Shown here in pieces: positions 48,981 to 64,000 of a stretch of DNA of 64,000 nt. The position numbers were made by a program, and so were the translations under genes. Source of the stretch: Gillisia marina (GTDB lineage Bacteria; Bacteroidota; Bacteroidia; Flavobacteriales; Flavobacteriaceae); assembly GCF_000258765.1 (NCBI RefSeq), contig NZ_AJLT01000012.1, positions 1 to 64,000 on the forward strand. Direction: 5' to 3'. Position 1 is the first letter of the stretch, and the number at the start of each line of letters is the position of its first letter. Below the pieces are notes generated by a model. The model saw nothing but the letters and a program-made list of their open reading frames with translations. It ran no database searches and was not told the DNA's origin.

Positions 48981-50144
48981 TCATGAGCTAGATAATAATA
49001 GATTACAAAAAAAAATAAAATACATAATCATTGATTTCTGGCGAATAATAATCCCAAGATTAGACATTACAAAAGTCATTGCGAAAGAAGTAATCAGAAA
49101 TAAAGCTAAACTCATTTTCACGTTCATTGGAGCAAGTTTGATGAATTTAAAAAAGTCCAATTTCACGATTTTAAGAAATAATAGTATGTAAATTAGATTT
49201 TCCATAGAAACTATAACGCCTAAGATTCCGGGAGCATCAAAGAATAATGGTCTAAACCAGAAACTAAAGATTTTTTCTGGTAAAGAATAACCTGCCATAT
49301 TCAATCCTGAGCCAGATTCACTAAGAGCATCTGCCCTATTTGAGGTAAACTTAAGAAAATCAAAGATTAGATCATTAGAATTTTCTAAATTCACTACAGA
49401 AAGTATTGAGTTTTGAAGTAAAAACAAGCTTAATAGAAATATCCCTAATGCAATACCTTTATGTTTCCATGTAAACCTCCCTAAACCGGTCAAGAAGCCC
49501 AGGAGAAATCCTATTGATAAAATTAGAAAAATATGAGGACGAATATAAAAAACCAAGAGTGAACCAACTAATAAGGTAATAACTCTCTCTTTGGGTTTTG
49601 AAATTGCATAACCAAATAGCATTAATCCCAAGAAAATTAGCGCCCCTTTTCCCAAAGAAGCAGTCCAGAAATGCATATTAGGAAGAAAGAGAATAAGTGT
49701 GAGTAAATCCACTTTTTTAAAAACCTTTACATCCAAGGGAATGTTTTCCTTAAAAAATAAGTAGGCATAAACAAAACCCATAAATCCTACCCAGGTATAG
49801 AGAAGCATCATCATCTCGTAACTAAAACCAAAATAATTAATAAAAGGATAAGATACGAAATCTATAAAAGTGGTTTCGGTCCCTAAATAGTCGAGCCAGC
49901 CTTTGTTTCTATTTTGAGGAACACTATAATATCTTATCGAATCTGATGGATTAAAAAGTGCATAAATATAATAGATCACACCAAAGACCAAATGATAAAG
50001 TGATAGTAGATTCATTAATTTTTTCTTAAAGAAAAAATGTCTTAATTGTAATTTGGAAAAGATGTGCTGATTAACAAAAAACAAAATCAACAGGAGTAAG
50101 ATAACCTTTGATATATTGATAAAATGCAACGTAAGTACTTCCAT
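48981..50144 (-). CDS. Wzy/EpsG-like polymerase, copy 1
   Basis: 387 residues from the ATG at 50144 (an ATG ten codons earlier is possible). About ten membrane helices with a long loop after helix 2 (NPSDSIRYYSVPQNRNKGWL). Short loops carry F-W-T-x-S-L-G-K-G, IRPHIF and FWFRPLFFDAPG, repeated closely in the second copy. The size and topology fit the polysaccharide polymerases (Wzy/EpsG). DNA identity with copy 2 is very visible at the 3' end, so they are duplicates. Separated from copy 2 by the deacetylase gene. Confidence 0.75.
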   Translation of the reverse strand: MEVLTLHFINISKVILLLLILFFVNQHIFSKLQLRHFFFKKKLMNLLSLYHLVFGVIYYIYALFNPSDSIRYYSVPQNRNKGWLDYLGTETTFIDFVSYPFINYFGFSYEMMMLLYTWVGFMGFVYAYLFFKENIPLDVKVFKKVDLLTLILFLPNMHFWTASLGKGALIFLGLMLFGYAISKPKERVITLLVGSLLVFYIRPHIFLILSIGFLLGFLTGLGRFTWKHKGIALGIFLLSLFLLQNSILSVVNLENSNDLIFDFLKFTSNRADALSESGSGLNMAGYSLPEKIFSFWFRPLFFDAPGILGVIVSMENLIYILLFLKIVKLDFFKFIKLAPMNVKMSLALFLITSFAMTFVMSNLGIIIRQKSMIMYFIFFCNLLLSSS

Positions 50145-50363
50145 GCTTATGATATTGTATAAGCATCTCACCATACAATTATAAGACCGATTGGATATAA
50201 ATTTCTACAACACTTAAGGAATGCTGATAACAAACTATTCACCAGCATCTTGGGTTGTTTTCTATTTAAAATTACTTAACACACCTCATGGAACTTGATT
50301 AAAAAACCACAAAAAAAGTGTAGAAATATTACATAATAAGCAGCTAAGGATTGCTGCAATATT

Positions 50364-51526: not shown

Positions 51527-52673
51527 TCATATTTTTTCTGAGCTAGATAATAATAGATCACAAAAAAACGCAAAATACATCACCATTGATTTTTGCCTCA
51601 TAATGATTCCAAGGTTGGACATAATAAAAGTCATCGCAAAGGAAGACAGCAGAAAAACTACCAGACTCATTTTAACAACTACTTCACTTTTAAATAAAAA
51701 TTTTATGAAATTTATATTTAAAATTTTAAAAAACAGAAAAAGGTATAATAAATTTTCAAACGATATAATTAAACTCAAAAATCCGCCAGAATCAAAAAAT
51801 AAGGGCCTAAACCAGAAGGTAAAAAGTTTTAACGGAAGGGGATAAGATGAAATGTCTACCCCGGAACCTGATTCGCTTAACCCCTCAGCACGCGTTTCGC
51901 TAAAATTTTCGAAATCGCCAATAACATTATCTGAATCCTCTAGGCCTACTACATTTAAGATTTGATCTTGTGCAATCAACAATCCACCGACGAGAATTAT
52001 ATAAACCATTAATTTTTTCCAAAAAGCAATTTTTTCCTTTCCGCTCATATATCCTAATACAATTCCTACAGCAACAAATAAAAAGACATGAGGCCGCACA
52101 AAATATATTATCAATAGTGCAAAGATTAATTTATACATTCTTTCTTTAGGCTTATTAATCGCATAAGCAAATAACATCAATCCAAAGAAGATAATAGATC
52201 CTTTACCTAAGGATGCAGTCCAAAAATGCATATTTGGTAAAAATAGAATTAAATACAAAAAATCAAAAAACTTAAAAACTTTTATTTTAACAGTGATATT
52301 CTCCCTAAAAAAAAGATAGGCATAAATGAATCCCAAAAATCCAAACCAGCCAAACAAAACCATCATCATTTCATAGTTAAAACCTAGAAACCTGACAAAG
52401 GGATATGTAATAAACTCTATAAAAGTTGTACCGGCGCCAAAAGATTCAGACCAAACAAAATCACTTTTTAAGGGTCTAAAATAATAACCTTTTGAATCGG
52501 AAGGGTTAAAAGATATATATATATAGTATATGATACCAAAAACTACATGGTAAAAAAATAAAATATTAATTATTTTAATATCAAAGAAATTATGTTGCTT
52601 TTTAAGTTTACGACAAATTATTTGTGTTACGCCGAAAAGAAATAATAATAAAAAAAAGTAATTCTATTATCAT
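51527..52673 (-). CDS. Wzy/EpsG-like polymerase, copy 2 (frame broken at an A8 run)
   Basis: About 381 residues after removing one base from A8 52650-52657. The corrected N-terminus reads MIIELLFLLLFLFGVTQII and continues through SFNPSDSKGYYFRPL to FLGFNYEMMMVLFGWF; as written the first 100 residues fall out of frame. Helices and loops match copy 1, with FWTASLGKGSIIF, VRPHVFLFV and FWFRPLFFDSGG. It starts one base after the GNAT gene stop, so the unit is tightly packed. Two polymerases in one locus may serve two linkages or be a recent duplication. Confidence 0.75.
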
Positions 52674-55835: not shown

Positions 55836-57068
55836 TTATTTTTCTATTCCTAGAATTTCACATACCCTATTTAATTCATGAACCCAAGATCCCTCAGCAT
55901 GAAACCAATGAAGGGCATTGTGCTCAAGTGTTTGTTTTAATAATTCGTTAGAAATTAAGAGTAACATCTTATTGGCTAAATCATTAACTTCACCTGGTTT
56001 ATACATTAACACATCTTTTCCATCACCGAAATTAGATGATAAATCTCCTGCATTTGGTACAATTACGGCCTTTCCTAAGGCTAAGTACTCTCTTAATTTT
56101 AGCGGTGAATAGTGAAATCCTTCAGCAGATTTAGCACTTACTAGACATATATCAAAATTTGAGACGTAGTCTGGCACCTTCACAAACTTTTTCCTACCAA
56201 CAAAAATGACATTTTCTTCCAAATTTAATTCCGTTACAAGATGTTTAATTTTATCAAATTCTTGACCATCTCCTACCAAAATTAGAATAGCGTTTGGAGT
56301 TTTATCTTTTACTAATTTAAATGCTTTTACCACGCTATCTAAGCCATGAAAATTTCGGAAACTTCCTGTCCAACCGAACACAATCTTCCCTTTTAAGTTG
56401 TATTTTTCAGAAATTCTACTATTTTTTACTTCAGGATTAAATAATAAAGAGTCAACTCTATTGGGCGTTACTAGAACTTTATCTTCATTAATACCCATTG
56501 AAATTACTTTATATTTTATTTCCTGGCTAACGCAGCATATTAAATCAGCATTTTCTAAGGATTTAGCTTCAATATTTTTTTCTAACCAATTACCCCATAG
56601 AGGGCGTTTTACTCCCCACTTCTTAGCTTCCCAAACAGCTAGTGCCTCTACAGAAATAATAAAGGGAACATTTAATTTTTCAGCAATTTTATGACCAGGA
56701 CCAGGGAATAAATCATGCCTTTCCCAGACAAATTTTACATTTTTGTTCTTAAGAAATTTGTTCTCTTCAACCGGCCATACTCTAGGTTTAGAATTTTTTA
56801 ATTTAAAATCCTTGTAAGCTGTTATTAAAAATTCTGGGATAAATTTTCTTATTTTTTTTGGTTTTTTTGAAGTTGTAGCATCTTTGTTTCCTTTTGGGAA
56901 TTCAATTGATTCTTTTGGACTAAATATCCCGTCTGTGGTTGCCACATAACTAGTTCCGAAAATTTCTCCTGCTGCACCTGCCCATCCGGAAGCAGTGATC
57001 CATCCTGCTTCATTCCCTTTCCATTCATCACTACCTCTTGGCACAATAAATAAAGCTGTATTTTCCAT
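55836..57068 (-). CDS. GT4 family glycosyltransferase
   Basis: 410 residues. The N-terminal domain starts MENTALFIVPRGSDEWKG and has VWERHDLFPGPGHKIAEKL; the C-domain has FGWTGSFRNFHGLDSVVKAF and YSPLKLREYLALGKAVIVP (E-x7-x like) near residue 325. Intact and full-length. A 66-base gap follows the upstream GT29 gene. Donor and acceptor unknown. Confidence 0.87.
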   Translation of the reverse strand: MENTALFIVPRGSDEWKGNEAGWITASGWAGAAGEIFGTSYVATTDGIFSPKESIEFPKGNKDATTSKKPKKIRKFIPEFLITAYKDFKLKNSKPRVWPVEENKFLKNKNVKFVWERHDLFPGPGHKIAEKLNVPFIISVEALAVWEAKKWGVKRPLWGNWLEKNIEAKSLENADLICCVSQEIKYKVISMGINEDKVLVTPNRVDSLLFNPEVKNSRISEKYNLKGKIVFGWTGSFRNFHGLDSVVKAFKLVKDKTPNAILILVGDGQEFDKIKHLVTELNLEENVIFVGRKKFVKVPDYVSNFDICLVSAKSAEGFHYSPLKLREYLALGKAVIVPNAGDLSSNFGDGKDVLMYKPGEVNDLANKMLLLISNELLKQTLEHNALHWFHAEGSWVHELNRVCEILGIEK

Positions 57069-57134
57069 ACTAAATATTGATTGGTAAATATCTCATAAAC
57101 AAAAAATAAATTAAAATAAATTAAAAATCATTTA

Positions 57135-57875
57135 TCAAAAATTTCCATAGCGCTTGACGATATCCTCTAAATCTGGATCCATCTCTATAGGAATACGATT
57201 CTTGTTCTTATTGAATTGTCTTAAAAATTCTGCAAGTTCCAGATCAGGATTATGCAAACCTTGTTTTTCTATAAACTTGAAATTTTTTTCTACATCTTTC
57301 AAATTATCCCTGTAATCATCCGCATATGGAGTTTTGAAGAAAGTAAAACCACTAATATAAAGTTTCGAACAATTAGAATTAAGAACTGTGTACAACGCTG
57401 AAAAACCAACGGTTGGAATGAACGAATTTAAATTCTTTGTAATAGACTTATATAATATATAAGGTAAATAATAGGTGACTATTTCAGTTAAATTTCTCTT
57501 GTAATAGTTCCATTGAATTCTAAGACCTCTTATATTCGAGTTAGGGTTAACTAAAAATTTGTTATTTTGAGCTTGAAGAATTTCCAAATCTATTGGTCCC
57601 CCACCACTTTCCGAAAATTCAAAAAATGAATGAAATAAGATATCTGTTCTAGTCCCCACAAAACGTTTTTTATTTTCATCCAACTTTATGGCACCACGAT
57701 TTACACGTATAATATAATCAAAACTGTCTATATAACTTCCTAACTCCTTTTTAAACGCCGAATCAGCAGCACCAATAACTGCAACAGATTTGTTTTTTAC
57801 AATTTTATCAAGATGAAATACTTTGGTATTTGAAAGAAAAAGTTTTAATCCCTTTAGGCTATTTAATAAATTCAT
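57135..57875 (-). CDS. GT29-family sialyltransferase-like enzyme
   Basis: 246 residues from the ATG at 57875; the frame is open ten codons further up, but that would overlap deeper into the HAD gene. Sialylmotif-L-like: KSVAVIGAADSAFKKELGSY with IDSFDYIIRVNRGAI and FVGTRTDILF (CMP-binding in animal enzymes). Sialylmotif-S-like: IPTVGFSALYTVLNSNCSKL with YISGFTFFKT. GT29 enzymes use CMP-sialic acid, and a CMP-sugar synthetase gene lies 1.3 kb upstream in the same operon. It lacks the N-terminal membrane anchor of eukaryotic GT29. The donor here is probably the CMP-sugar made by this locus (inference). Confidence 0.8.
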   Translation of the reverse strand: MNLLNSLKGLKLFLSNTKVFHLDKIVKNKSVAVIGAADSAFKKELGSYIDSFDYIIRVNRGAIKLDENKKRFVGTRTDILFHSFFEFSESGGGPIDLEILQAQNNKFLVNPNSNIRGLRIQWNYYKRNLTEIVTYYLPYILYKSITKNLNSFIPTVGFSALYTVLNSNCSKLYISGFTFFKTPYADDYRDNLKDVEKNFKFIEKQGLHNPDLELAEFLRQFNKNKNRIPIEMDPDLEDIVKRYGNF

Positions 57876-58492
57876 GAGTGATTGAGTTAAAATAAAAATT
57901 ACCAACTTTTAGTAAATCTAAATTATTGTAGCCAGCGAAGGAAATATTATTTCGATCTGCAGCCTCGAAATCATTTATTGAATCTCCAATCAACAGTGTT
58001 TCTTTAGGAATATAATTGTGTTGTTTTAAAATAGTATCTACAAGTTGAATTTTTGGTGTGGGTGAACCATGAATGGATTTAAAAAAAAAACTGAATATCT
58101 AATTTTTCACACAGAAACCTCAATTCATTCTGATCTGAACCCGAAACTATATGCATGTCATAATTCAAGTAGTTTTCTTTTAAAAATTTTACAGAATCTT
58201 CAATTAATAAATTCTTATCAATTAAACGACTCTTCATATATTCTGAAAATTTAGTGGCGAAGATTTTGATTTTTTCTTCTGAAACTTCTTCTCTTCTAAC
58301 TACTTCAAAAAAATATCTAAATTTAACATACCGAGATAAACCACCATTCTCGTGATGGAATTTCATTAAAACATTTACTTCTTCATTTGGAAATTCCTGA
58401 AGACAGTGAACAAAACCTGCGTCTCTTATATCTGAGGAGTTCAAAATCACGCCATCAAAATCCCATAGTATATTTTTAAATGATCTATTCAA
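57859..58492 (-). CDS. HAD-superfamily phosphatase (frame broken at an A10 run)
   Basis: About 210 residues after removing one base from A10 58081-58090; as written it ends in EKLDIQFFF. Motif I is ILWDFDGVILNSSDIRDAG, motif II HIVSGSDQNEL, and motif III appears only in the corrected frame as LLIGDSINDFEAADR, which shows that the downstream part belongs to it. Catalytic Asp and the C1 cap (about 15-85) are typical of beta-phosphoglucomutase-like HAD enzymes. By position (between the CMP-sugar synthetase and GT29) it may dephosphorylate an ulosonate 8/9-phosphate, as KdsC does. It overlaps the next gene by 17 bases. Confidence 0.85.
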
Positions 58493-59150
58493 AACTATTC
58501 TCCTTTAAAATTTTATTCATTAAAAATTCCGCAAACTCAAAATCAAGCTCTGTATCTATATCAACAGCCTCCCTTTGCGATATTTTATAGAAGAGAGGTT
58601 TCTTCCCAATATAACTGCGACATTTTAGCATGGTTGATTTTTTTACCAGAACTAATCCAAAAGTTGGCACAAGATACTCAGGTAAATCCTGTGAATTTGG
58701 CATCTTTTCGATAGAGTAATTTAAGGGCTTATTATCATACCAAATAAAATCCTTCAATACTTTTACCGACATAAGACTATCACAATCGGTTTCATAAAAT
58801 TGCTCAATAGCCTCTGTATAACTAGCCACAGAAATTAATGGAGCCGTTACTTGAGCAACTAAAATATTTTCTGCATCAGTGGTTTTGGCAATATAGTGGT
58901 GAAACTCGCTATTAGAACACTCAGAGCTTGCGTAGTAAGGCTCTCTTTTGTGCACTGATACACCAGCTTTCTTAGCTATTTCTATTGCTTTTTCACTGTC
59001 AGTGTTTATAATTATATCATTAACGGGTAATTTTTTGATAGTTTCAATCTTATGCTCAAGTAATGATTTTCCCGCAAAAGATTTTATATTTTTATTCCTC
59101 ACTCTTTGAGATCCCGCTCGAACCGGAATGACTGCAACTAATTTCTTCAT
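58485..59150 (-). CDS. NeuA/KdsB-type CMP-sugar synthetase (acylneuraminate cytidylyltransferase family)
   Basis: 221 residues, standard size. CTP-binding loop VIPVRAGSQRVRNKNIKSFA, IIINTDSEKAIEIA, LVAQVTAPLISVASYTEAIE, and the metal-binding end motif EAVDIDTELDFEFAEFL. It joins CMP to the anomeric carbon of a 2-keto-3-deoxy sugar acid (sialic, legionaminic, pseudaminic or Kdo-like). No NeuB-like synthase is seen in the window. It overlaps the epimerase stop by 59 bases and the HAD gene by eight, so it is clearly one operon. The exact sugar is unknown. Confidence 0.92.
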   Translation of the reverse strand: MKKLVAVIPVRAGSQRVRNKNIKSFAGKSLLEHKIETIKKLPVNDIIINTDSEKAIEIAKKAGVSVHKREPYYASSECSNSEFHHYIAKTTDAENILVAQVTAPLISVASYTEAIEQFYETDCDSLMSVKVLKDFIWYDNKPLNYSIEKMPNSQDLPEYLVPTFGLVLVKKSTMLKCRSYIGKKPLFYKISQREAVDIDTELDFEFAEFLMNKILKENSFE

Positions 59151-60033
59151 CTATATTATTTATAAATTCCTCTAATCCTTCTTTAAGTCCAAACCTAGGT
59201 GACCATCCCGTGGCTTTTAACTTAGATATATCACTAGTTATTAAAGTTTGGTCACCTAGATAACCATCTAATTCATTAATCTTCAATTTTTTATTTAGGC
59301 GCTCACTCAATACATTAATAATTAACTCGGGAGTCAAAATCTCTTTAAAGGAAACATTATAGGTTTCATTTCTCATTCCAGGAGTTTTTAAAGGCATTAT
59401 CAAAGCATTTACAACATCATTCACATGAACTAATTCACGAATACGATTTTTACGTCCAGTTATAGATATAACATCTCTATTTAGTGCTTGATCTAAATAA
59501 ATACTCAATATTCCTTGGCGTTTGTTAGACAAATCCTGTCCAGAACCATAGGTTGCAAAAAGTCTGAAAATTGTAAATGGTATCTTACTATGGACCGGTA
59601 AAAGTCTACAATAATTTTCCCCGGCAAGTTTACTTGCGCCATAAAACGATATCGGAAATGTTGGAGATGTTTCCTTAGCATTTTCCATATCCCCATAAAC
59701 TGCCATACTACTGGTATATATAAAATTCTTGACCTTTAATTTTTTTGCTAAGCGAATAACATTTAATGTGCCTAAACAATTCCATTCGCAATCCCCCACT
59801 GGATCAATTAGGCTATAATATCCTCCAGATTGAGCAGCGAGATGATAGATTACGTCTATATCCCCAATATCCAAATCGACCAAAGTACTTTTGCTAATAT
59901 CAAATTGTATAAAAAGAACATCTGCTTCCGGTTTATTTTTATCTAAACAAGTTACATTATGCCCAATTGAAAGAAGTTTTGTTATAAGTTTATTTCCTAT
60001 AAATCCAGCTCCCCCAGTTACTAGAATGTTCAT
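59092..60033 (-). CDS. NAD-dependent epimerase/dehydratase (extended SDR)
   Basis: 313 residues. Rossmann motif NILVTGGAGFIGNKLITKLL, VIYHLAAQSGGYYS, catalytic ISFYGASKLAGENYCRLL (Y-x3-K near residue 138) and FRLFATYGSGQDLSNKRQG; SFKEILTPELI marks the C-terminal substrate part. Fits the UDP-glucose 4-epimerase/GDP-mannose dehydratase group. The last about 20 residues run into the start of the cytidylyltransferase gene (59-base overlap). Its ATG overlaps the stop of the aldolase gene by four bases. It probably changes the precursor aldose. Confidence 0.88.
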   Translation of the reverse strand: MNILVTGGAGFIGNKLITKLLSIGHNVTCLDKNKPEADVLFIQFDISKSTLVDLDIGDIDVIYHLAAQSGGYYSLIDPVGDCEWNCLGTLNVIRLAKKLKVKNFIYTSSMAVYGDMENAKETSPTFPISFYGASKLAGENYCRLLPVHSKIPFTIFRLFATYGSGQDLSNKRQGILSIYLDQALNRDVISITGRKNRIRELVHVNDVVNALIMPLKTPGMRNETYNVSFKEILTPELIINVLSERLNKKLKINELDGYLGDQTLITSDISKLKATGWSPRFGLKEGLEEFINNIDEEISCSHSGSSGISKSEE

Positions 60034-60759
60034 ATATAATTTAAAATTTTAGATTTTATATCTTTACAGGAATTAAATAAAATATTAACATCTACCGAAT
60101 AGGCTAAATACTCAAAACCGTATTCCATCAATTTTTTAGCCATTGGAATGGAGTCTGAAAAAGTACCTAGTCTAACATCATTTTCCTTTGCTAATTTTGA
60201 AATATCATGCATTAACTTGGTCATTTTAGGGTGGTCTACTTCGCCAGGTATTCCTAATGATTGAGATAGATCATAAGGACCAATGAATATTATATCAATA
60301 TTCTTGACACTAAAAATTTTTTCTAAATTATTAATACCTTTTTCTCCTTCAACTTGCAATATTAATTTTTTTTGCATTAGCATTCTTAAAATAATCCTTT
60401 TTATCTGTAGAACCGTGATTAGCGTCTTTCACGAACCTGCATACACCTCTATTCCCTATAGGGAAAAATTTAGCATATTCAACTGCTAGTTCAGCTTCTT
60501 TAACACTTGCAATATTTGGCACTTGTATTCCGTCTACCCCACAATCAAGAGCCGACCCTATCAAATTAGAATTTAATTCACCTACTCTTGCAATTGAAAG
60601 TATATTCGAAACTTTACAAGCTCGAACATGATTAAATAAATTTTCTCTGGAAGAAGGGCCATGTTCTTGATCTAAAATAACGAAATCCATCCCTGAGAAG
60701 CCAATCGCTTCAATAAAATTGCTGTCAACAGTTTTTGAAAATACTCCTACCATTCCCAT
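60030..60759 (-). CDS. HpcH/HpaI-family class II aldolase (frame broken at a T8 run)
   Basis: About 242 residues after removing one base from T8 60366-60373; as written it stops after NANAKKINIAS and resumes as KKLILQVEGEKGINNLEKI. Typical HpaI features: VILDQEHGPSSRENLF (catalytic His), IARVGELNSNLIGSALDCGV, GIQVPNI, then Glu-metal LILQVEGEKG and IIFIGPYDLSQSLGIPGEVD. HpaI aldolases use a divalent metal to join or cleave pyruvate (or oxaloacetate) and an aldehyde. Here, beside a CMP-sugar synthetase, it could build a 2-keto-3-deoxy sugar acid. The ATG overlaps the HMGL gene stop by one base. Confidence 0.88.
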
Positions 60760-62315
60760 TAAATATCAATTTTACTATAAACAGATTCTTTTTCAGGAAT
60801 TCCATAATAGGTTGCTGTAAGGCTCACTAATTTTATATCTTTCGCTTTAACAATTTTTTCAAATAAATATTCATTTTCTAGAAAGAGTTCCTGTTCATTC
60901 TTTTGAATGATTTCCGTGGTATATCCATCGTATCCGGCCAAATATATGGTTTTCGCGCCAAGTTCGCAAGCGGTTTGCAATGCAATTGCTGTATGGGAAT
61001 CCTTAAATTTTTCGGTAAACATCTCATCTTGCAATTCATATGAACAATTACTTAAAGCCTCTGGAATATAAGTGCCCATTTTTCTGGGAAAAGGCGGTAG
61101 AATACATTTTCCTTGAATTTCTAAGTGATTATTAAAAACCTTTTCAAGTCTATAACCCTCATTTCCTACAAGGCAGTAATATTGATCGTTTTCAATATTG
61201 TCATAACTCCTAGCGTTTTTAGAGCTTGCATGTATAACTATAATATCAGGATGCAAATTCAAAAAAGTTTTTAAGGCTTCATTATGATTTACGGCACTAG
61301 GACCCCCGCCTATTAATAAAACTGTATCACTATTTCCTATCCCTTTAAAATCTAATTTTGATAGCTCTGTATTATCTTTAAGACCTTTGGATTGATTAGA
61401 AAGAGCTCTGGCGATACTATTTAATGAATAATATCTTTTAGTAACCCATTCCATCACTTCTTTTTGGGGTAATGAATGCGCACCAGAGACCATATAAGGT
61501 AAATTAGTACCCCACCCAAAATCTTTTTGCATCTCTGAAAATGGATCAACTACCATACTTAATGCATTAAAATTTAGTTCAATTTTATTTTGTGAATTTA
61601 ATGTTGTTAAAAGTAGTTCAGTGCTAAGATTACCAGCACCTCTTCCCATTCCAGTAACGGTTGCATCTACAATTACTGCACCACAATCAATCGCAGTTAA
61701 TGTATTAATTAAACCTAATTCCAGATTATTGTGACCGTGAAATCCAATTTTAACATCCAACTTATTTCGAACAATATCGTAGGCTTTTTTAACGTCATTA
61801 GGAAAAACACCTCCATAAGAATCCACCATGTAGAAATAATCTATAACTCCGTCTACATTACCTATTTGAGCTAAGAACTGCTTTTCTGATTCCCATTTAG
61901 ACATATACATGACATTAAAACAAATCTCAAATCCCAATTTTGCAACCTCCTCTGCCAAACCAATGGCCCGACCGAAGTTTTGGGGATCTACTGCAATTCT
62001 AACCATATTTATCAATCCAACACAAGGATTTAAAAGGTCATTGACATGTTCCTTACGAACATTCTTTTCGTCGAGGATAATAGCAAGCTTTTTATTAGAA
62101 AGTTCTTTACAACGTTCTAGAACTATGCGAGGACAATAAAAGTATTTTCCTAGATAAGTATTCATTGGATTTGATCTATATCCAATTTCCAAATAATCTA
62201 CCGGAAGATCATTAAAAGATTCAAAATATATTTCTGTTAATTTATCTTCAAAATCCCAACCTGTATAATATCCCCCATCTCTCAGGGTACAATCCAAAAT
62301 TTTCAAATTTTCCAT
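60759..62315 (-). CDS. HMGL-type (DRE-TIM) aldolase fused to a Rossmann-like domain
   Basis: 518 residues in two parts. Residues 1-310: DRE-TIM metallolyase barrel with the catalytic start KILDCTLRDGGYYTGWDF, IGFHGHNNLELGLINTL (metal His-x-His-Asn), DATVTGMGRGAGN and VDSYGGVFPNDV; nearest to the 4-hydroxy-2-oxovalerate aldolase-like branch. Residues about 325-518: SDTVLLIGGGPSAVNHNEAL, CLVGNEGYRL, and SHTAIALQTACELGAKTIYL with AGYDGY, a nucleotide-binding-type fold similar in pattern to DUF115/MptE-like or GT29-like proteins. Catalytic residues seem intact. No signal peptide. It should make or split a C-C bond next to pyruvate; the second domain's job is unknown. Confidence 0.82.
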   Translation of the reverse strand: MENLKILDCTLRDGGYYTGWDFEDKLTEIYFESFNDLPVDYLEIGYRSNPMNTYLGKYFYCPRIVLERCKELSNKKLAIILDEKNVRKEHVNDLLNPCVGLINMVRIAVDPQNFGRAIGLAEEVAKLGFEICFNVMYMSKWESEKQFLAQIGNVDGVIDYFYMVDSYGGVFPNDVKKAYDIVRNKLDVKIGFHGHNNLELGLINTLTAIDCGAVIVDATVTGMGRGAGNLSTELLLTTLNSQNKIELNFNALSMVVDPFSEMQKDFGWGTNLPYMVSGAHSLPQKEVMEWVTKRYYSLNSIARALSNQSKGLKDNTELSKLDFKGIGNSDTVLLIGGGPSAVNHNEALKTFLNLHPDIIVIHASSKNARSYDNIENDQYYCLVGNEGYRLEKVFNNHLEIQGKCILPPFPRKMGTYIPEALSNCSYELQDEMFTEKFKDSHTAIALQTACELGAKTIYLAGYDGYTTEIIQKNEQELFLENEYLFEKIVKAKDIKLVSLTATYYGIPEKESVYSKIDI

Positions 62316-62335
62316 ATTTTTTTAACTGTAATTTT

Positions 62336-63656
62336 TTATAAATAATCATTTATTTTTTCTGCTGTAAACCTTGTAGAGTTCGTTCCAATTTTATAATATA
62401 ATTTCTCTCGCAAAGCTGTTTGCTGTTTAAAAGCCAAGTCCTCCCGGCTATTTACATCAATTAATTTCATTAAAAAAGAATATAACGAAGGTACTGTATT
62501 AAAAGCCGGCATCAATAACTCATTTTTCATCATTTCTATATTTGAATGTATCCCCATCCCATCATCTAAATCTAATAGCAAAACGGGTTTATTATTAATT
62601 GGGGCTTCATAACTCATAGTTGATCCTTTAGTAATTATAATATCACAATTTTCAAGAAAAAATTTATTTTCTAAATTTGCAGAGAAAATTTCGAAATTAT
62701 CAAACTGCAAAGCCTTCTCATCAAACTCTGCATTCAGACTCATTGGATGTTTTTTAAAGACAAAATTAATAGAAAGCATTCCATACTCTGCCATAAAAGA
62801 GTTTAAAAACTTAATAACATTATCATTATGTCTATCCAAAACTACACCAATATCAATTTTCGAAGTTTTTTTTACGTGAGGTCACTTTTTCTACTTGAAC
62901 TATAGGATTTCCTACCAATGAGATTTGGTATTCTTCAACTCCCATAGATTTTAATTGGTTTCTCTGAATTTCTCCCCAACACCATACATTTTCTGCGAGA
63001 AATGGGTGGTATCCGTAGGAAGTATTTATTGTAGAATGAATTAAGGTTACAGTTTTTAAACCCTTAGACCTAGCAGCCAACACAATTGCACTCATTGTAA
63101 AGCTACGGTCATAATCAACAACAATGAGTTCAGTGTTTTCAATAGCAGGCAATATAGATTCTACTTTTAATAATTGAACGTAAAGATGATTAAAACAATT
63201 GGTTTTTGAAATTGGTAGATTAAAACTTTTAATGATTTTAAAAACTTTTTTTGAAATTTTTCGTGTTTCAGTATAAATTTTCAGGCATTTGACAATACCT
63301 ACATTAGGAAATTCGTTAAATTTTATAAAGTCAAAATTCTCGTGGCTCTCGGGACTATAAAATGTGGAACTAGGTTCGATATATTCTGAAAGAGGATATA
63401 TAAGCTTTTTAAAATTAGGTCTAGTAGTATTATAACCTAAAACAACTTTATTGAATTCCTTTTTATTCTTAAAATAATTATTTATTGATTTAACTATGAT
63501 TTTCGGGACTATGATTTTGCTATTAAACCCCTCAAGCCTTGGATCTTCTCGGTGGGTAACAAAGAATAGCTTAGAAAATAAACCACCAACGGGAATTCCT
63601 TTGTAACAAATTTGATCAATCGCAATTTCAGCCTTTATAAAATTCTCCGAATTCAT
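62336..63656 (-). CDS. GT-B-like capsule glycosyltransferase/surface carbohydrate protein (frame broken at a T8 run)
   Basis: About 439 residues after removing one base from T8 62866-62873; as written it stops after SRKKNFEN and resumes through KIDIGVVLDRHNDNVIKF. The N-domain has VVLGYNTTRPNFKK, LIVVDYDRSFTMSAIVLAAR and TLIHSTINTSYGYHPFLAE, with the CWGEIQRNQLKSMGV segment typical of capsule GT-B and CDP-glycerol-type transferases. The C-domain holds FVFKKHPMSLNAEF and IIITKGSTMSYEAPINNKPV (S-T-x-S-Y-E-A type donor site). It may move Kdo-like or glycerol-phosphate-like groups. A 20-base gap separates it from the aldolase gene. Confidence 0.75.
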
Positions 63657-63661
63657 CTAAT

Positions 63662-64000
63662 TTACATTTTTTGCAATTTGATCATTTCTTGAAAGGTTGT
63701 TGATGTATCCAAAAGATCCTCATATTTACCCTCTGAATCTATTTTTCCATTTTTCAAAACAATTATTCTATCGGCGTTTCTTATAGTAGATAATCTATGA
63801 GCTATTATGAAAATGGTATATTTACCTTGCAGTTGGTCTATGTTTTTTTGTATTGCTTTTTCCGTTTCACCATCTAAAGCAGAAGTTGCTTCATCCATAA
63901 ATAAAAAATCCACATCTTTATAAAGTTCCCGAGCAATTGAAAGTCTTTGCTTTTGTCCTCCACTAATATTAATTCCGTTATTCCCTAAATATTCGTCTTC
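63662..64000 (-). CDS. ABC transporter ATP-binding domain, C-terminal part (runs off right edge)
   Basis: About 112 residues visible without start. The signature motif INISGGQKQRLSIAREL, Walker B with DFLFMDEATSALD, and the switch His in IFIIAHRLSTI are all there, followed by the D-loop and IIVLKNGKIDSEG. The order and the ISGGQKQRLSIA form fit the MsbA/PglK exporter type (transmembrane domain fused before the ATPase), so the part outside is probably six helices and Walker A. A flippase for the lipid-linked sugar of this locus is likely, five bases from the next gene. Substrate inferred. Confidence 0.9.
   Translation of the reverse strand, partial: EDEYLGNNGINISGGQKQRLSIARELYKDVDFLFMDEATSALDGETEKAIQKNIDQLQGKYTIFIIAHRLSTIRNADRIIVLKNGKIDSEGKYEDLLDTSTTFQEMIKLQKM

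Follow-up and report, generated by a model that had tools for sequence, protein, structure and literature searches.

Can a bacterium make a CMP-activated sugar acid without a synthase that uses phosphoenolpyruvate (PEP)? To our knowledge, the bacterial ulosonic acids activated with cytidine monophosphate (CMP), namely sialic acids, pseudaminic acid (Pse), legionaminic acid (Leg) and 3-deoxy-D-manno-octulosonic acid (Kdo), are made only via PEP-dependent synthases. The question is raised by a gene cluster of Gillisia marina (Flavobacteriaceae), found in the first 64,000 nucleotides of contig NZ_AJLT01000012.1 (this whole stretch is hereafter the window). The cluster combines an HMGL-type aldolase fusion protein, an HpcH/HpaI aldolase, an epimerase, a CMP-sugar-acid synthetase, a HAD phosphatase and a GT29-like glycosyltransferase, and neither NeuB nor KdsA was found among these six genes in the list of open reading frames (ORFs) or with Pfam. 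From a comparison with related loci we consider it fairly probable that the cluster encodes a module making a CMP-activated 2-keto-3-deoxy sugar acid (an ulosonic acid) without a PEP-dependent synthase. The window cluster appears to be one case of a widespread and apparently undescribed bacterial module, whose core, judged by gene content, is the HMGL fusion, the CMP synthetase and usually the HAD phosphatase.

Conservation of the module across genomes

The HMGL fusion protein alone served as bait for the survey. A scan of species genomes gave at least 465 relatives; the 80 best of these, together with six loci from a search of the order and the window's own locus, make up a set of 87 loci. 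The census includes the 77 loci with at least 2.5 kb of downstream sequence and leaves out the other ten. In 74 of the 77 loci a CMP-sugar-acid synthetase is encoded within 4 kb downstream on the same strand, and the downstream partners also include HAD (53 loci), GT29 (8) and HpaI (7). The synthetase starts no more than 100 bp downstream of 55 of the 77 HMGL genes; of the 890 remaining ORFs in the named loci, 23 have one so close, and this baseline itself includes module genes such as HpaI. The clustering of the two genes is thus not due to chance. The earlier note, made from the window sequence alone, proposed looking for the gene set (HMGL fusion, HpaI, NeuA, HAD and GT29) in other Bacteroidota genomes; the HMGL fusion, the CMP synthetase and usually HAD do recur together, while HpaI, the epimerase and GT29 proved to be optional.

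According to the titles of their records, the carriers belong to Bacteroidota, Pseudomonadota, Cyanobacteriota, Bacillota and other groups, and some are metagenome-assembled genomes (MAGs) or single cells. Homologs of the fusion occur in 7 of the 395 order genomes (E 1e-20) and in 10 of 395 from the phylum (E 1e-60), the window's genome being included in both counts. The draw from the phylum added seven new loci, a new locus being one that has no 200-base probe match in the 80 scan loci and is not the window, G138 or G143. Six of these seven encode both a CMP synthetase and HAD: L143 and L144, and L136, L137, L141 and L146, which were read as the longer L150, L147, L148 and L151 (the L151 synthetase scores 87 bits only). 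At the seventh, divergent locus (L145/L149) neither gene was found in the approximately 1 kb left downstream on the contig. Viral contigs gave no relatives in a single-sequence query that reaches close relatives only, and phage records gave two partial, distant matches.

PEP-dependent synthases in carrier genomes

NeuB (PF03102) was searched for in 55 module genomes, representing 50 of the 80 scan loci and five of the six genomes of the order search. The 50 are a non-random choice from 60 loci at which the module was seen; the ten left out lie mostly on short contigs. No PF03102 match was found in 20 of the 55 genomes, and the matches in two more are 3-deoxy-D-arabino-heptulosonate 7-phosphate (DAHP) synthases only. 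Since a true NeuB was thus not found in 22 of 55 genomes, NeuB is, on this genomic sampling, dispensable to the module. The idea that NeuB would be consistently missing from carriers had to be given up, as 35 of the 55 genomes have a PF03102 match (a true NeuB in 33). KdsA scores above its cut-off in 46 of 56 genomes.

Several of the genomes without NeuB are nearly or fully complete, including G138 (one contig, 100% complete), G544 (one contig, 99%), which has two modules, and G493 (20 contigs, 99%), the latter two coming from the phylum draw. The last carries the gene order HMGL-HpaI-epimerase-CMP synthetase-HAD as in the window, with 65% identity for the synthetase and 62% for the epimerase. 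The two module copies of G544 (L150 and L151, within 3145000-3182000 of its contig C1) differ from each other and lie about 21 kb apart. Neither a true NeuB nor a true KdsA was found in six genomes (G404, G416, G419, G421, G274 and G432), one of which, G432, is an isolate of the Gram-positive Rossellomorea aquimaris (Bacillota). The KdsA-like ORFs of these six genomes match DAHP synthase models best, with a score above a curated cut-off for G432 and G421 alone.

The sequence beyond the window bears directly on this question. The contig continues to 95,095 bp, and on the strand of the module it encodes the rest of an ABC transporter and then PseI (66934-68013; TIGR03586, 515 bits against a cut-off of 340). 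The earlier statement that no NeuB or KdsA synthase is in view holds inside the window only. The earlier note regarded a NeuB/KdsA homolog in the operon just beyond position 64,000 as counting against its reading, and in the literal sense one exists: PseI, a PEP-type synthase, lies in the same direction 2.9 kb beyond the right edge. PseI is followed on the same strand by a formyltransferase, a PseH-like gene (score under its cut-off), PseF (293 bits, cut-off 206), a YhcH-like gene, a NeuB/SpsE-SpsF-like fusion, and PseC and PseB, both likewise above their cut-offs. The formyltransferase adjoins PseI and could mean that Pse occurs as an N-formyl variant. The fusion, which adjoins PseC, is a protein of 602 amino acids (aa) that joins a divergent NeuB/SpsE-like to a KdsB/SpsF-like part (L004:13820-15628, equal to C12 70820-72628, beyond the window). 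PseG was not seen among the named genes of this run, at which no search for it was aimed. Elsewhere in the genome, contig C54 carries NeuC above its cut-off, NeuB at 399.1 bits, just under the cut-off of 399.65, and a NeuA-like gene, and canonical KdsA and KdsB lie on contigs C23 and C22, respectively.

With PseI, PseF, PseC, PseB and the PseH-like gene upstream on the same strand, the cluster could be read as the tail of a Pse locus, in which the acid comes from PseI and is only modified or re-activated by the aldolases, the epimerase and the second synthetase. A NeuB/PseI-type gene is in view at 15 of the 63 loci with at least 9 kb on both sides, and PMC12053666 reports enzymes that turn Pse into its 8-epimer. 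However, PseI has its own PseF, which lies on another branch of the tree than the second synthetase of the window (the latter reaches 78.6 bits with the PseF model TIGR03584, under the equivalog cut-off of 205.7). Moreover, some genomes that carry the module give no NeuB/PseI match at all, and one of these holds the closest five-gene match to the window, L147. On this genomic evidence the module synthetase does not seem to be fed by a PEP-using synthase, and we regard a Pse tail as unlikely.

CMP synthetases of the module

The known substrates of both the NeuA and the KdsB families are 2-keto-3-deoxy acids. The 74 partner synthetases are divided equally between NeuA-type (37 loci) and KdsB-type (37 loci). 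These labels come from our own hidden Markov models (HMMs); in the 49-row set A4 the motif assigns 21 synthetases to the KdsB type, and NCBIfam assigns 23. R11 and K20 are invariant, and D199 and D203 are present in at least 90% of the synthetases (n=49). On the HMGL tree (87 rows, 78 of them labelled; like the other two family trees, a quick IQ-TREE run) the synthetase type switches 17 times, at least 11 of these being forced by supported branches, and even closely related Halomonas differ in type (L083 compared with L086 and L100). That both types share one substrate class is a simple explanation for this repeated swap.

Most synthetases of each type group together. One clade (SH-aLRT 100) unites 34 of 39 module NeuA-types, the one of the window included, with L098, and contains no NeuB-linked NeuA or PseF; the PseF and the NeuA-like gene of the window's genome fall outside it. 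A second clade (SH-aLRT 96) unites 34 of 39 module KdsB-types with two other KdsB-types from these loci and excludes the 15 canonical KdsB. These topologies suggest that most module synthetases are dedicated to the aldolase module. A distinct type of CMP synthetase, on a long branch with SH-aLRT 99, was observed in the HpaI-bearing modules of L096 (12391-13095) and G007 (C18 221721-222440).

The KdsB-type half of the partners could also mean that the module serves to make or re-activate ordinary Kdo, its synthetase being a KpsU-like capsule paralog of KdsB and its aldolase an alternative source of Kdo or a Kdo-cleaving enzyme. The HAD phosphatase would then correspond to KdsC, and the frequency of KdsA in the carriers would fit. 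We judge this improbable, to the same degree as a Pse tail, given that most of the KdsB-types group in a separate clade, that a separate canonical KdsB exceeds its cut-off in 15 of 21 genomes checked (mainly those without NeuB), that NeuA-types substitute repeatedly, and that Rossellomorea carries the module and no KdsA.

In the position usually taken by HAD, straight after the CMP synthetase, L034 (12252-13280) and L035 (12292-13320) have a PfkB gene resembling kinases for 2-keto-3-deoxygluconate and 2-keto-3-deoxygalactonate (KDG/KDGal), which gives a weak hint at short acids.

The HMGL aldolase fusion protein

Residues 3-312 of the fusion protein match PDB entry 3dxi (E 2.4e-116), with 4-hydroxy-2-oxovalerate aldolases next. 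Among curated models the aldolases score best (95.0 bits), ahead of 2-isopropylmalate synthase (61.5 bits), and homocitrate and citramalate synthases are also among the weaker matches. The 4-hydroxy-2-oxovalerate aldolase model TIGR03217 gives 82.9 bits, under its equivalog cut-off of 286, so that only the superfamily assignment (PF00682) passes its threshold. R12, D13, H193 and H195 are invariant in all 61 family members and align to DmpG, and the fusion keeps the signature of DRE-TIM pyruvate aldolases, consisting of the Arg-Asp of TLRDG and the HxH metal site, motifs with known roles in the 4-hydroxy-2-oxovalerate aldolases. The family also has an invariant Arg in the motif GMGRGAGN.

A Claisen-type condensation of an acyl-CoA with a keto acid, which would yield a branched or other acid and not a plain aldol-made ulosonic acid, is conceivable for a member of the same superfamily that matches isopropylmalate, homocitrate and citramalate synthases, if more weakly, and in which the DmpG His is replaced. 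We hold it to be the least probable of the alternatives considered here: aldolases score higher, the metal-site motif (HGHNN) ends in N as in the aligned aldolases (HAHHN, HGHQN) and not in D as in the aligned citramalate synthase (HGHND), and partners of the NeuA and KdsB types expect a 2-keto acid.

The structure models of the fusion reach a pLDDT of 94.7 and, for the C-terminal domain, 94.5. This second domain resembles Maf most closely (5mu5, Z 15.5, 191 aligned residues, root mean square deviation 3.6), followed by SteA, an archaeal HPPK and the sialyltransferases CstI and CstII (Z 10.2-11.0); thiamine pyrophosphokinase folds score as well. The MptE-like family PF01973 gives 21.4 bits, under the gathering score of 34.6, and no PDB entry matches the domain in sequence at E 0.01 (best 0.078). 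The domain is thus Maf/sialyltransferase-like in its modelled fold and, by fold similarity alone, a candidate transferase. The earlier note listed the protein as an HMGL-type aldolase and an HMGL fusion; the aldolase domain stands, and the second domain of the fusion is Maf/CstII-like.

None of the five plasmid relatives that lack the C-terminal domain (L105-L109, a small sample) has a CMP synthetase within 8 kb, and the one full-length Leisingera copy examined of three has one. In L105 (a Mesorhizobium plasmid) and L108 (a Paraburkholderia plasmid) the HMGL relative without this domain lies near genes for an SDR, a HAD-IA hydrolase and an aminotransferase, which may represent a different small-molecule pathway carried by the plasmids of nodule bacteria.

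Proposed route and its weighing

From the parts, their conservation, the synthetase swap and the NeuB-less carriers, all seen in the sequences, we infer the reactions, their order and the kind of aldehyde as follows. The HMGL/DRE-TIM domain, a putative pyruvate aldolase that depends on a metal and is akin to the 4-hydroxy-2-oxovalerate aldolases, would condense pyruvate with a (probably phosphorylated) aldehyde to a 4-hydroxy-2-oxo acid, that is, a 3-deoxy-2-ulosonic acid. HAD would remove the phosphate, as KdsC does from Kdo-8-P, and the NeuA-type or KdsB-type synthetase would form the CMP-sugar. A transferase, in the window the GT29-like enzyme, would then add the sugar to a surface polysaccharide. 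The earlier idea of an aldolase route to a CMP-ulosonic acid receives comparative support from the dedicated synthetases and the NeuB-less carriers, with HpaI, the epimerase and GT29 as optional parts.

A number of observations weigh against this route. The His of the DmpG motif DGSH is Tyr16 in the fusion, invariant in 61 of 61 members, and because of this replacement the chemistry may differ; we also know of no enzyme of the fusion family with an established activity. No HAD was found at 24 of the 77 loci, among them 21 of the 74 that have a synthetase, and L059, L076 and L080 lack a downstream CMP synthetase. The main clade leaves out five of 39 module NeuA-types (L071, L077, L081, L096, G007), and five of 39 KdsB-types (L031, L072, L079, L095, L101) lie on another branch. 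PseI stands in the same gene run as the module, and at 15 of the 63 well-covered loci a NeuB lies within about 10 kb. Of the six genomes without true NeuB and KdsA, G404, G416, G419 and G421 are MAGs and G274 is 58% complete. Finally, the window copy may be inactive, as its HpaI and HAD genes are frameshifted, unless the frameshifts are assembly errors.

We still prefer a PEP-independent aldolase route. For the broader proposition the chances seem to us about even: that this is a second route to CMP-ulosonic acids, present in at least six phyla and centred on an aldolase/Maf-like fusion, that it yields sugars outside the assigned pathways, possibly short ones of five to eight carbons (3-deoxy-pentulosonic or -hexulosonic acids, for instance), and that the versions with HpaI make a further variant. 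Genome surveys predict producers of ulosonic acids from NeuB or KdsA, and because of this reliance they would, if the route is real, overlook a class of acidic surface sugars. The route would also provide a function for the large family whose members carry the annotation 'aldolase catalytic domain-containing protein', for which the domain structure 3dxi has been solved since 2008.

Optional components

HpaI homologs in one open frame are present at L028, L029, L096, L100, G007, L147, L150 and L151; L100 falls outside the census for its length. HpaI was considered as a core component and rejected, as only 7 of 77 census loci have it (L100 being additional). The CMP synthetases of HpaI-bearing loci tend to lie on separate or basal branches, and because of this tendency HpaI probably alters the product, giving a different final sugar. 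More generally, HpaI and the epimerase are probably optional parts that change the sugar. GT29-like homologs directly follow HAD at L024, L026, L030, L032, L048, L051 and L064.

Organization of the cluster in the window

All six families are encoded on the minus strand between 57135 and 62315 and are confirmed by Pfam (Table 1). The description of six genes running in one direction is therefore upheld, with the correction that HpaI and HAD are broken.

Table 1. Module genes of the window, with Pfam scores in bits (GA, gathering score)
Gene product	Coordinates	Strand	Remarks
HMGL aldolase fusion, 518 aa	60759..62315	-	HMGL/DRE-TIM domain (residues 1 to ~312; PF00682, 67.7, GA 29) and Maf/CstII/MptE-like domain (~316-518)
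HpcH/HpaI pyruvate aldolase, two ORFs	60030..60759	-	Both ORFs PF03328 (38.4 and 56.1, GA 25); optional
NAD-dependent epimerase/dehydratase	59092..60033	-	PF01370, 152.2; optional; 62% identity to the same-position gene of L147
CMP-sugar-acid synthetase, NeuA-type, aldolase-associated clade	58485..59150	-	PF02348 (CTP_transf_3), 62.1, cut-off 22.6; 65% identity to L147
HAD phosphatase	57862..58492	-	ORF 58079-58492 (HAD_2, 31.9, above GA, this ORF only) and out-of-frame continuation ~57862-58095; two HMM pieces
GT29-like (sialyltransferase family) glycosyltransferase, probable transferase	57135..57905	-	PF00777 (Glyco_transf_29), 43.3, GA 23; optional

The HpaI gene consists of ORFs 60349-60759 and 60030-60383, which are in different frames and join at an 8-base run (60366). 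The first HAD ORF ends at a ten-base run (58081), and the homologous C-terminal part lies in another frame. A third break separates 62336-62839 from 62853-63656, upstream of the module, where two ORFs meeting at an 8-base run (near 62866) are probably one broken gene; these ORFs have no BLAST match among the module loci and only a weak Capsule_synth match in Pfam. All three breaks fall at A/T runs of 8-10 bases and account for three of the four runs of at least 8 bases in 56001-64000. They are likely to be assembly indels.

The 59-base overlap reported between the epimerase and the CMP synthetase is present between the ORFs. The homology of the 313-aa epimerase ORF ends near residue 292 (among the nine best listed homologs the alignment stops at residues 287-297 in eight and at 217 in the other), and the overlap is probably due to the extension of the ORF past this point.

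Farther away in the window, 48981-50174 and 51527-52369 encode membrane proteins with long stretches that are similar by eye; they look like paralogous polysaccharide polymerases, and the ORF between them looks, also by eye, like a polysaccharide deacetylase.

Comparison with known systems

A description of the module was not found in the open-licence literature, to which the search was confined, nor in the excerpts of PMC10433991, PMC4869667, PMC5109656 and PMC12409901. The Pseudomonas flagellin genes PA1088-PA1090 were considered as a known version of the core trio and dropped. These names occur in papers on b-type flagellin and type A phospho-glycans, and their route is not known to include an aldolase.

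The module resembles the KdsA-KdsC-KdsB pathway in its logic of acid phosphate, HAD phosphatase and CMP synthetase, and half of the module loci with a synthetase have one of the KdsB type. It differs in that the C-C bond would be made by the proposed DRE-TIM pyruvate aldolase and not by the PEP-dependent KdsA, and in that its KdsB-types mostly form their own clade. With the NeuB/PseI-NeuA/PseF pathways it shares NeuA-type synthetases and, in the window, an enzyme of the GT29 sialyltransferase family; however, the module itself has no NeuB, its NeuA-types mostly form a separate clade (SH-aLRT 100), and it also occurs in genomes without NeuB.

The DmpG/BphI/MhpE aldolases (PDB 1nvm, 4lrs) share with the module enzyme the fold, the metal-site motif HxH and the Arg-Asp motif, whereas the module enzyme has a Tyr for the His of DGSH, an Arg at GMGRGAGN and a Maf/CstII-like C-terminal domain. 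The C-terminal part of DmpG is its dehydrogenase-contact domain. The N-terminal domain of BVU_2661 from Bacteroides vulgatus (3dxi) belongs to the same family as the fusion (54% identity with Foldseek), but it is named only a 'putative aldolase' and was crystallized without the C-terminal domain. That domain, in turn, has the fold of the Maf flagellin glycosyltransferase and of CstI-CstII, from which it differs in its low sequence identity (11-17%) and in being fused to an aldolase.

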